Origin: Candidatus Moraniibacteriota bacterium
GTDB lineage: Bacteria > Patescibacteriota > Minisyncoccia > Moranbacterales > GCA-2747515
Direction: 5' to 3'
Assembly (NCBI GenBank): GCA_947311515.1
Contig: CAMZLB010000005.1
Location: 1 to 40,430 of the forward strand
DNA: 40,430 nucleotides
The notes under the pieces are model-generated. The model was not told the DNA's origin and made no database searches. It saw only the letters and a program-made list of their open reading frames with translations. The translations under genes were made by a program, and so were the position numbers. Shown here piece after piece: positions 4,841 through 8,603 of the stretch (positions within the stretch are counted from its first letter, which is position 1; each line of letters opens with the position of its first letter).

Positions 4841-6841
4841 TTACGTTATATTTATAGGATCTATATCTATTTTCCAATTGTTATCTAATGAGATTAGTTT
4901 TGTTTTAAGTTTTTGTGGAATTATATTTTCACTAGATTGGTTTAATAATTTTTTGATAGTTATTATAAACTGTATTTTATACATTGCTCTTACTTTATTT
5001 ACAAGAGGGTCATGAGGTTCTGATATTTTTAAATCAAAGTCTCTACAAATGTCTACAAGTTTGTCAGTCAAAAGATCAGTTTGTTTTTTTGCAGTATCTT
5101 TATATTTTGACTCATAGGTAATTTTTATCATTTGAGAATATGGTGGTAAATTAAGTAATTTTCTAGTGGATAACTCTTCTTCAGTAAATTCAATCCATGA
5201 ATTATTTTTGGCAAATTCTATTACTGGATGCATAGAATTATAAGTTTGAATTAATAATTCTCCATACATACCAACTTTTGAACCTAATTGAAGTATGTGA
5301 GCAAATGCTTTTTCGTCTGTATCATAATCAGTACTGCTTAATAATTGGTCCATATCAATTATTGCAGCTAGCGATAGATTTTGAGTATACCATCCCTTAG
5401 TAGTCATTTGTGTACCTATTAAAATATCAATTTTTCCAGTATAAAAATTTTTGAATAATTTATCATATGAAGTAGGCTTTGACATGCTATTATTATCAGC
5501 TCTTGCTATGTTGTGATCAGGGAATAACTTATTTAAATCTTCTTCTAATTGTTCAGTTCCTATGCCAACATTTATAAATGAGATATTTCTGCAATTAAAG
5601 CATTTTGGAAATATATTTGATGAAAAATTACAATGTAAACACGAAAAAGAACCATTAGTTCGTTCTACTAAGGCTCGTTCACACAATTTACATCTGAAGA
5701 CAGTTTTACACTTAGAGCATATTGAAAAAGAATTTTTTCCTTGTCTGTTTATAAATATCAGAACTTGCTTATTTTTTGATAACGTTTTTCTAATAGCTTG
5801 TAGAAGTTCTTCTGAAAGAATAGGTCTTTTTTTTATATGTTTATTTTTGTTTTTTTTATAATACTCTAATTTCATATCAATCACTGTTATTTTAGGAATA
5901 TTGTTTTCAGGTAGCGTAACTAAAGTTTTATTTTTTTTTGCAATTTCAAAATCAGAAATTTTTGGTGAAAAAGAAGTAGATAAAAATTTAGCACCATGAA
6001 ATTCTGCAATTTTTTTTGCACAAACTCTCACGTCATATCTAGGGGCTTTTGCCCATTGTTTGTGAGATATATCATGAGAATCCACTATTATTACAAGAGA
6101 TAGATTTGTAAATGGTGCAAATAAACCTATTCTAGTTGTTAGAATTATCTTAACTTTATTGACTTTGATATTTTCCCATCTCTTAAAAAGATGACCTTTT
6201 GTGATAGTTGAGGATAGTGTAATTAAGATATCTTCTTGAAAATATTGTAATAATAAATTTTGATAAACTGGAAGTAATGTTTTCTCAGGTACAAAAATTA
6301 CAATTGATTTATTTTCTTTTATTTCTTTATTTATTATTTTTATCAAAACTTCAGCAAAAAATGCATTATAAGTTGTTTTTAAGGTACAATTATTATTAGT
6401 ATTAAATATTTTTTCTATATCGGATATACAAGTTTTTTCAATTTTTGGAATATTTGGTAAATTTTTTATAATTTGCTTTGAATCCTTATGTTTTGTTTTT
6501 GAGTTTACAATCTTTGGTAAAAAAAGTTTTATTACTACACCGAGAGAGGTGTAGTAATAAGATGATATGTATTTAGCTAATTTATATTGATTTTCAGTTA
6601 TATAGCTCTCTTTTATGATTGATTCTATGGATTTTAATTGTATCCCTTTAATTCTAGAAAAATCTTTTTTTGATTTAAGGACTATGCCTTTGACATTTTT
6701 ATTGCCTATAGAGATATTAACAAAAGAACCAAAAGGAATCTGGTTCTTTGATGTATAAAAAAAATATTGATCACGCGTAAGTGGTAGGCGAATCAAGGGA
6801 ATCACTGAAACTAAAAATTTTTCTGACTCACTGATTTGCAT
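4841..6841 (-). CDS. priA: PriA-like primosomal protein with degenerate helicase motifs
   Basis: A 666-residue protein collinear with PriA, the superfamily 2 helicase that recognises stalled forks and reloads DnaB. The 3'-DNA-binding domain (about 1-105), helicase lobes and C-terminal domain are all present. All eight zinc-binding cysteines are kept (375, 378, 384, 387, 401, 404, 414, 417), as are the motif V-like segments VGIGTEQLEEDLNKLFPDHN and ILIGTQMTTKGW. The ATPase core is not: the Walker A position reads NNCTLKTTYN (about 151-160) instead of GxTGSGKT, the DEEH box reads DSHD (254-257), and QVAGRAGR of motif VI reads QLGSKVGMYG (518-527). A fork-binding or DnaB-loading role without unwinding is inferred. 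It is the last gene of the dnaB cluster, 9 bases after the coiled-coil gene. A sequencing artefact is unlikely because the frame is intact throughout. Confidence 0.88.
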   Translation of the reverse strand: MQISESEKFLVSVIPLIRLPLTRDQYFFYTSKNQIPFGSFVNISIGNKNVKGIVLKSKKDFSRIKGIQLKSIESIIKESYITENQYKLAKYISSYYYTSLGVVIKLFLPKIVNSKTKHKDSKQIIKNLPNIPKIEKTCISDIEKIFNTNNNCTLKTTYNAFFAEVLIKIINKEIKENKSIVIFVPEKTLLPVYQNLLLQYFQEDILITLSSTITKGHLFKRWENIKVNKVKIILTTRIGLFAPFTNLSLVIIVDSHDISHKQWAKAPRYDVRVCAKKIAEFHGAKFLSTSFSPKISDFEIAKKNKTLVTLPENNIPKITVIDMKLEYYKKNKNKHIKKRPILSEELLQAIRKTLSKNKQVLIFINRQGKNSFSICSKCKTVFRCKLCERALVERTNGSFSCLHCNFSSNIFPKCFNCRNISFINVGIGTEQLEEDLNKLFPDHNIARADNNSMSKPTSYDKLFKNFYTGKIDILIGTQMTTKGWYTQNLSLAAIIDMDQLLSSTDYDTDEKAFAHILQLGSKVGMYGELLIQTYNSMHPVIEFAKNNSWIEFTEEELSTRKLLNLPPYSQMIKITYESKYKDTAKKQTDLLTDKLVDICRDFDLKISEPHDPLVNKVRAMYKIQFIITIKKLLNQSSENIIPQKLKTKLISLDNNWKIDIDPINIT

Positions 6842-6850
6842 TTGTTTGAT

Positions 6851-7204
6851 TTATTTAGTTTTTTTGAATGATATATTGTAATTTGGTTCATAAAGTGTAT
6901 CATAAGCATCCCTTACTTCCACAGTTTCACCTTTCATAAGGTTTGTAAGTGATATATCAGAAATCATTTCTTTGATAGACTTTTCTTCAGCCTTTAAGTC
7001 TTCAAGTTGTTCCCATCTAGAACCCATATCACGTTGAGCAGACATTTCATGCTGTTTCTTTTCTTCTTTGATTTCATTTATTTTCTCTACTAATTCTGCA
7101 TATTCTGAATCATGTGATAGTGAGTCTTTATATTCTTTGCGAATTTCTTTGATTTCTTTCTTTGTTTCTTGCAATTCATTGAAAACTTCTTGTAAATCTT
7201 TCAT
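6851..7204 (-). CDS. Coiled-coil protein between dnaB and priA
   Basis: A 117-residue, highly charged protein. About residues 1-90 are continuous heptad-like helix (ELQETKKEIKEIRKEYKD, then KINEIKEEKKQHEM, then EDLKAEEKSIKEM), predicting a two-helix antiparallel coiled coil with a turn near DMGSRWEQ. The C-terminal 30 residues are a short non-helical tail (GETVEVRDAYDTLYEPNY). No signal peptide or membrane segment is present, so it is cytoplasmic. It lies 40 bases after dnaB and 9 before priA on the same strand, which implies cotranscription with replication genes. A structural or adaptor role is plausible but not shown by the sequence. I do not recognise the family by name. Confidence 0.75.
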   Translation of the reverse strand: MKDLQEVFNELQETKKEIKEIRKEYKDSLSHDSEYAELVEKINEIKEEKKQHEMSAQRDMGSRWEQLEDLKAEEKSIKEMISDISLTNLMKGETVEVRDAYDTLYEPNYNISFKKTK

Positions 7205-7244: not shown

Positions 7245-8603
7245 TTATTCGTGTGTTTCAGGTGAATTAGTATGTACTTGCTCAAGTGTTTTGTATGAAG
7301 CAGATTCTTGGTGAAAAAACATTGGAACGCTTCCTACGGGACCATTACGATGTTTTGCAATGATTATATCAGCCATTCCCTTGTTTTCAGAATCAGGATT
7401 GACTCGGTCCTCTCTGTAAATAAACATAACCACATCAGCATCTTGCTCAATAGAACCAGATTCACGGAGGTCAGAAAGTTTTGGACGTTGATCAGTGCGA
7501 GACTCGATTGCACGAGATAACTGAGAAAGAGCTAGTATCGGAATATTTAATTCTTTTGCTAGATTTTTGAGACCACGAGAAATTTCAGAAATTTCTTGTA
7601 CACGATTTTCATTTCCTCTACCTTCCATCAGTTGTAAATAGTCAATAATTATAAGTCCAAGACTATGTTCAGACTGTAAGCGTCTTGCCATTGTTCGCAT
7701 TTCCATAATATTTGCACTAGAGGCATCATCTATAAATATAGGAGCTTCTGATAGTTTGCCTAGAGTTTCGCTAATTTTTGCAAAGTCTGAATCTTTCATA
7801 TTTCCAGTCCTGAGTTTCCATAGATCTATATTTGCTTCAGCTGCTATCATTCTATCTACTAACTGGTCAGCGGACATCTCTAATGAAAATATCCCAACTG
7901 GTACATTATGTTGTGTGGCTGCTTGACGTGCAATATCTAAAGCTAGAGAAGTCTTACCAACAGATGGACGTGCTGCAAGTATGAGTAAATCAGATTTTTG
8001 AAATCCAGAAAGGAGTTTGTCTAAATCTATAAATCCTGTAGGTATTCCACGCATTTGTCCTTTATTATTATGAAGTTCGTCAAGTCTATCGAACGCTTCT
8101 CCAAGAATCTTTTGTATAGGTGTAAATTCTTGTTTAATTGATTTTTGTGAAATGGCAAATAGTTTCTGCTCTGCTTCATCGAGTAATTTATCAATTTCTT
8201 CCGCTTCATTATAACCCAGTTCACCAATTTCTGTTGCTGTGCTTATGAGTTTTCTAAGTATTGATTTTTTCTTTACTACTTTTGCGTAATAAGTTATATT
8301 TGACGCGCTTGGTACACTTGCAACAAGCTCTGCTATAGAAGATGCTCCGCCTAACTCATCCATTTTATTGGTTTCCTCTAAAGTATTTGCAATACTTAGT
8401 ACATCTATAGGGTCATTATTACCATAAAGAGTTAGAGCTGCTTCGTATAAATAGTTATGTTTATCAAAATAAAAATCACCTATATCTAAAATATCAGCAA
8501 TTTTCGTTATAGCTTCCTTGTCAAGCATTAGAGCTCCTAAAACTGAACGTTCGGCACTTTCTGAGTGAGGAGGTACTCGAATTGAATTATCTGATTTTGT
8601 CAT
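7245..8603 (-). CDS. dnaB: Replicative DNA helicase DnaB
   Basis: A 452-residue hexameric helicase that unwinds DNA at the fork. The DnaB N-terminal domain (about 10-110) begins with PPHSESAERSVLGALMLD. A linker helix leads to the RecA-type ATPase (about 185-435): Walker A ARPSVGKTS (211-219, normally GRPxMGKTS), Walker B LIIIDYLQLM (317-326), sensor ALSQLSR (358-364), SDLRESGSIEQDAD (377-390) and the arginine-finger region AKHRNGPVG (416-424). Length and motif order are those of a normal active DnaB, with no intein. It is the first gene of a three-gene minus-strand cluster with the coiled-coil gene and the priA-like gene. A promoter lies 26 bases upstream. The start codon context lacks a Shine-Dalgarno. 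Confidence 0.97.
   Translation of the reverse strand: MTKSDNSIRVPPHSESAERSVLGALMLDKEAITKIADILDIGDFYFDKHNYLYEAALTLYGNNDPIDVLSIANTLEETNKMDELGGASSIAELVASVPSASNITYYAKVVKKKSILRKLISTATEIGELGYNEAEEIDKLLDEAEQKLFAISQKSIKQEFTPIQKILGEAFDRLDELHNNKGQMRGIPTGFIDLDKLLSGFQKSDLLILAARPSVGKTSLALDIARQAATQHNVPVGIFSLEMSADQLVDRMIAAEANIDLWKLRTGNMKDSDFAKISETLGKLSEAPIFIDDASSANIMEMRTMARRLQSEHSLGLIIIDYLQLMEGRGNENRVQEISEISRGLKNLAKELNIPILALSQLSRAIESRTDQRPKLSDLRESGSIEQDADVVMFIYREDRVNPDSENKGMADIIIAKHRNGPVGSVPMFFHQESASYKTLEQVHTNSPETHE

Follow-up and report, generated by a model that had tools for sequence, protein, structure and literature searches.

The window, a stretch of 40,430 nucleotides that is contig C5 of a 1.2 Mb, 96% complete assembly of a Candidatus Moraniibacteriota bacterium, encodes what its sequence identifies as a PriA orthologue without a helicase, not a PriA helicase. 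The gene (4841..6841, minus strand) runs for 666 codons without interruption, encodes 666 aa, and is the sole PriA found in the genome. The best explanation, which we regard as likely, is that a true PriA orthologue has turned pseudohelicase and now acts in ATP-independent fork recognition and recruitment of the replicative helicase, probably with DciA. Since the DNA-gripping and zinc parts are kept and the ATP motifs are lost, the protein probably marks broken forks and recruits the helicase without unwinding. What is new is the extent of the erosion and its spread through Patescibacteria, as the pseudohelicase kind of PriA is already known. No paper on a helicase-less PriA in Patescibacteria was found in the literature searched, which was incomplete.

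Retained architecture and eroded ATP motifs

The initial annotation of this DNA, made from the letters alone, held that the full-length frame aligns with PriA, and profile searches agree. TIGR00595 (priA) matches residues 164-663 with 315 bits against a curated cut-off of 230. Also above their curated cut-offs are the 3'-DNA-binding domain (PF17764; 6515..6787, minus strand; 53 bits vs. 22.7) and the PriA C-terminal domain (PF18074; 4856..5143, minus strand; 32.7 bits vs. 26.9), both of which are kept. Eight zinc cysteines had also been claimed, and all eight (C375, C378, C384, C387, C401, C404, C414 and C417) align with those of E. coli PriA, in a zinc-binding region (5591..5719, minus strand) that forms an insertion in helicase lobe 2. 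By the same kind of alignment, F27, Y29, G46 and K70 are the equivalents of E. coli F16, Y18, G37 and K61, which we take to be the 3'-end pocket. A second, intact PriA elsewhere in the genome would have changed the picture, and a TIGR00595 profile search found none in the 96% complete, 1.2 Mb assembly. Three weaker matches to this profile were considered as extra PriAs and rejected: two of them, including the second-best, lie in UvrB and one in another helicase-like frame.

Using the window protein aligned with 44 PriAs as input, AlphaFold2 returned a model with a mean pLDDT of 90.9 and a pTM of 0.90. When this model was compared with the PDB by Foldseek, the nine best matches were all PriA chains, the best being 8fak, a fork-bound E. 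coli PriA (TM 0.82/0.85, E 1.8e-48). The model is a confident PriA fold that matches the E. coli protein. Besides the fold, the window PriA shares with E. coli PriA (8fak, 6dcr; TIGR00595) the domain order and the equivalents of F16, Y18 and K61. The E. coli protein is, however, an active 3'-5' SF2 helicase, to which the window PriA is only about 24% identical and from which it differs in all ATP motifs.

The register of these motifs was set by alignment to E. coli K-12 PriA and to other PriAs of the order. At the Walker A position (residues 156-163; 6353..6376, minus strand) the window PriA reads TTYNAFFA vs. GVTGSGKT in E. coli (224-231), so that the Walker A lysine K230 is replaced by F162. 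The Walker B/DEEH position (residues 253-256; 6074..6085, minus strand) reads VDSH vs. DEEH (320-323), and the motif III position (residues 288-293; 5963..5980, minus strand) reads STSFSP vs. LGSATP. At the motif VI position (from residue 518; 5267..5290, minus strand) we find QLGSKVG-- vs. QVAGRAGR, with both arginines of GRxGR absent. Motifs I, II, III and VI, by which an SF2 ATPase and 3'-5' helicase is recognized, are thus all missing. The initial annotation was correct that Walker A, DEEH and motif VI are lost, but two of the strings it quoted were shifted by a few residues: NNCTLKTTYN, given as Walker A, starts at residue 150, and the residues aligned with DEEH are VDSH rather than DSHD. 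It had also raised the possibility of a shifted, complete Walker A or DEEH elsewhere in the protein. A pattern search through all 666 aa found no GK[ST], [AG]xxxxGK[ST], DExH/DExQ or GRxxR, and therefore no displaced ATP motif.

We then compared the motifs with the rest of the protein, using 114 alignment columns in which conservation reaches 90% or more across 64 intact PriAs from the order. Of these fixed positions, the window PriA keeps 79 of the 98 that lie outside the ATP motifs (I, II, III and VI), vs. 2 of the 16 inside them (Fisher p = 2e-7). Conservation is nearly complete in the 3'-DNA-binding domain (15/16) and the C-terminal domain (11/11; together 26/27), and nothing is kept in motif I (0/6) or motif II (0/4). 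For the 43 helicase-less PriAs of the order taken together, 3230 of 4214 fixed positions are kept outside the ATP motifs vs. 167 of 688 inside. The erosion of PriA is aimed at the ATP site. These counts, with the eight cysteines, bear out the earlier claim that the ATPase core is gone and the DNA-binding and zinc parts are kept.

Could nucleotide still be used in some unusual way, via a non-canonical pocket? The lobe fold is kept, as are the PE of motif Ia and the GTQM and TR of other motifs. However, substitutions have removed the phosphate loop (GSGK), the acidic pair that binds Mg and the two arginine fingers, and in E. coli PriA the single substitution K230R abolishes both ATPase and helicase activity (PMC4504706). 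We consider such a pocket highly improbable; ATPase activity is very likely absent from the window PriA.

A PriA of this kind has been biochemically proven in D. radiodurans, where it was named a pseudohelicase: it shows no ATPase activity and no unwinding, and it binds ssDNA (Kd 215 nM), forks (109 nM) and DnaB (PMC4504706). E. coli priA alleles without ATPase are viable and still assemble primosomes (PMC4504706). Like D. radiodurans PriA, the window PriA is complete in its architecture and retains its zinc and DNA-binding parts, with Walker A and B spoiled, and it is the only PriA of its genome. In Deinococcus-Thermus PriAs, Walker A GKT has become GRT and Walker B is a poor match (PMC4504706), whereas in the window PriA, from an unrelated phylum, the P-loop, DEEH, motif III and motif VI have all been replaced. 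By these sequence features the window PriA is of the same kind as the D. radiodurans pseudohelicase, with deeper erosion. Actinobacterial PriA (NCBIfam PRK14873), annotated as 'probable, probably no helicase activity', has to our knowledge no recognizable helicase motifs. The match of the window PriA to that profile is weak, at most 93 bits, and is a lead only.

Motor loss among relatives

The initial annotation treated the gene as a single odd case. The state is in fact widespread in Patescibacteria, and this gene is one instance of it. The Walker A GK[T/S] is missing from all 15 PriAs of the window's family (f1) and from 43 of the 107 PriAs of the order. By family, the PriAs without GK[T/S] are 15/15 in f1, 8/8 in f11, 19/20 in f10 and 1/10 in f4, and GK[T/S] is retained in families f3, f5, f6, f7, f8 and f9. 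Beyond the order, 19 of 47 other Patescibacteria families in our phylum sample have only PriAs without GK[T/S], and 28 have only intact ones. In sequences this amounts to 26 without GK[T/S] vs. 41 intact, and most of the 26 retain the eight cysteines. Some f1 PriAs without GK[T/S] (e.g. L003-L005, L007, L008 and L028) retain DEAH or DEEH, while the window PriA has neither, so a graded decay is visible. A misassembly, sequencing error or misalignment, with an intact motor existing after all, is hardly credible: no Walker A pattern occurs anywhere in the window PriA, no second PriA was found, and the same loss is seen in 14 other independently assembled f1 genomes.

One contig of the window's family, DYDB01000001.1 (L118), was deposited as Micavibrio sp. 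and is apparently a mislabelled MAG. Further reduced PriA-like proteins of about 537 aa, with the zinc cysteines absent in the alignment, were seen in two other families (L280 in f29 and L282 in f49).

At E <= 1e-20, 68 of 145 sampled Patescibacteria genomes gave no PriA match, a number in which loss and divergence are mixed together. Within the same order, no recognizable PriA was found in any of the six genomes of genus g21 (G029, G051 and G070-G073), which are 90-100% complete, some of them 99-100%. Complete loss of priA from this genus is possible. DciA is present in both g21 genomes tested. The existence of relatives without any priA indicates that the lineage can live without the gene, and it also fits a slow route to loss.

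How many times the motor was lost is not settled by the gene tree. With the motif columns left out of the alignment, a PriA tree of the order requires three state changes, but a topology that places all helicase-less PriAs in one clade is not rejected (AU p = 0.55), and the tree carries long branches, which attract. The stronger argument comes from f4 and f10, families defined from whole genomes: each holds both intact and helicase-less PriAs, a pattern that speaks for repeated loss or for transfer of the gene.

We see an even chance that motor loss has been repeated across Patescibacteria, with many lineages retaining PriA as a fork beacon for DciA-DnaB that needs no ATP, and some later discarding it altogether. 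The helicase motifs of PriA are conserved in most bacteria, and the activity is dispensable in laboratory E. coli. If the repeated loss is true, PriA helicase activity would be dispensable in nature at the scale of a phylum, and separable from the loading role. A large number of natural PriAs stand at graded stages of motor loss, from Walker A gone with DEEH kept, through all motifs gone, to the gene absent. With such a set one can ask directly which part of restart depends on unwinding and for which part it is enough to recognize the fork and recruit the helicase, and it bears on how stalled forks are restarted in the reduced genomes of Patescibacteria.

Selection on helicase-less PriAs

The uninterrupted frame had been taken to imply selection for a non-helicase function. 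A maintained non-helicase function is indeed the best reading, given that the loss is family-wide and that helicase-less relatives are under strong purifying selection. As proof of selection in this genome alone, the open frame does not suffice, because the nearest relatives of the window priA are about 40% identical, with dS of 1.3-1.8, near saturation. For the same reason the dN/dS that the initial annotation had called for can be given for helicase-less relatives and not for the window priA itself, and the selection argument rests on the family. By the Nei-Gojobori method, close helicase-less pairs have dN/dS of 0.16 (L003/L004, 94% identical), 0.13 (L092/L093), 0.12 (L068/L070) and 0.16 (L065/L078). 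Most such pairs fall at about 0.1-0.2, inside the range of intact pairs more than 70% identical (about 0.07-0.25), which indicates maintained proteins rather than pseudogenes.

These values weigh against a decaying pseudogene heading to loss, whose frame would be open only since the decay is recent. The eroded ATP motifs and the relatives without detectable PriA would fit such a gene. Against it, besides the dN/dS of 0.12-0.19 in most close helicase-less pairs, the helicase-less state is found throughout f1, in members that are about 27-43% identical to the window protein, the fixed positions of the 3'-DNA-binding and C-terminal domains are almost all kept, and the full fold is predicted confidently. 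We judge a pseudogene very unlikely.

Partner genes and a possible route to restart

The gene for the cognate replicative helicase, dnaB (7245..8603, minus strand), lies upstream of priA on the same strand, separated from it by an ORF for a lysine- and glutamate-rich protein of 117 aa (6851..7204, minus strand), so that both closely precede priA. Marking forks or loading the adjacent DnaB had been suggested as possible functions. We rejected a dnaB-priA operon as functional evidence because the adjacency is unique to this genome: among 74 related loci (flanks of 1.5-6 kb, some ended by contig ends), none has dnaB or a homologue of the 117-aa ORF beside priA. The 117-aa product is charged and probably coiled-coil, with no family match above cut-off.

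Other candidate partners are encoded elsewhere in the genome. A 96-aa DciA-like ORF directly follows dnaN, near dnaA. Its Pfam match (22.1 bits) is below the cut-off of 24, and it is its position beside dnaN and dnaA that makes it likely to be DciA. The genome also encodes an SSB with an acidic tail ending in EDVPF, as well as a UvrD-type helicase whose GAGSGKT is intact. DnaD was not found in the genome, and a DnaC/DnaI-type loader was rejected, as the only IstB/DnaC-type match is DnaA.

With these components, the window PriA would most likely still initiate replication restart, but as a protein that lacks its motor. Recognition of the branched fork would be the task of the 3'-binding domain together with the folded helicase lobes, and SSB is a likely partner. 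In E. coli PriA the zinc domain serves primosome assembly; here it may, together with the C-terminal platform, help to bring DnaB, which would probably be opened and placed by DciA. Clearance of the lagging strand could fall to another helicase, e.g. the UvrD-type enzyme, or be unneeded. We infer each of these elements: the absence of ATPase, fork binding, recruitment of DnaB and DciA, and replacement by another helicase.

A maintained PriA-derived protein might instead have a job other than restart, e.g. as a structural or regulatory binder of forks or SSB in repair. The missing motor would suit such a role, and the absence of priA from some relatives means that PriA-based restart may be inessential there. 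However, none of the PriA domains is missing, the zinc domain included, and binding to DnaB persists in the Deinococcus pseudohelicase (PMC4504706). We find a non-restart job unlikely, though less so than the other alternatives, and favor a pseudohelicase that recruits the replicative helicase to forks.

The coding strand of priA also contains, about 280 bases from the start (6529-6560, minus strand), a hairpin of 13 perfect base pairs (-17.4 kcal/mol) and, after it, AACTTTTTTT. The hairpin is absent at the same place in the 13 relatives checked, and none of 20,000 synonymous recodings folds as well. Together, the hairpin and AACTTTTTTT resemble an intrinsic terminator or attenuator.
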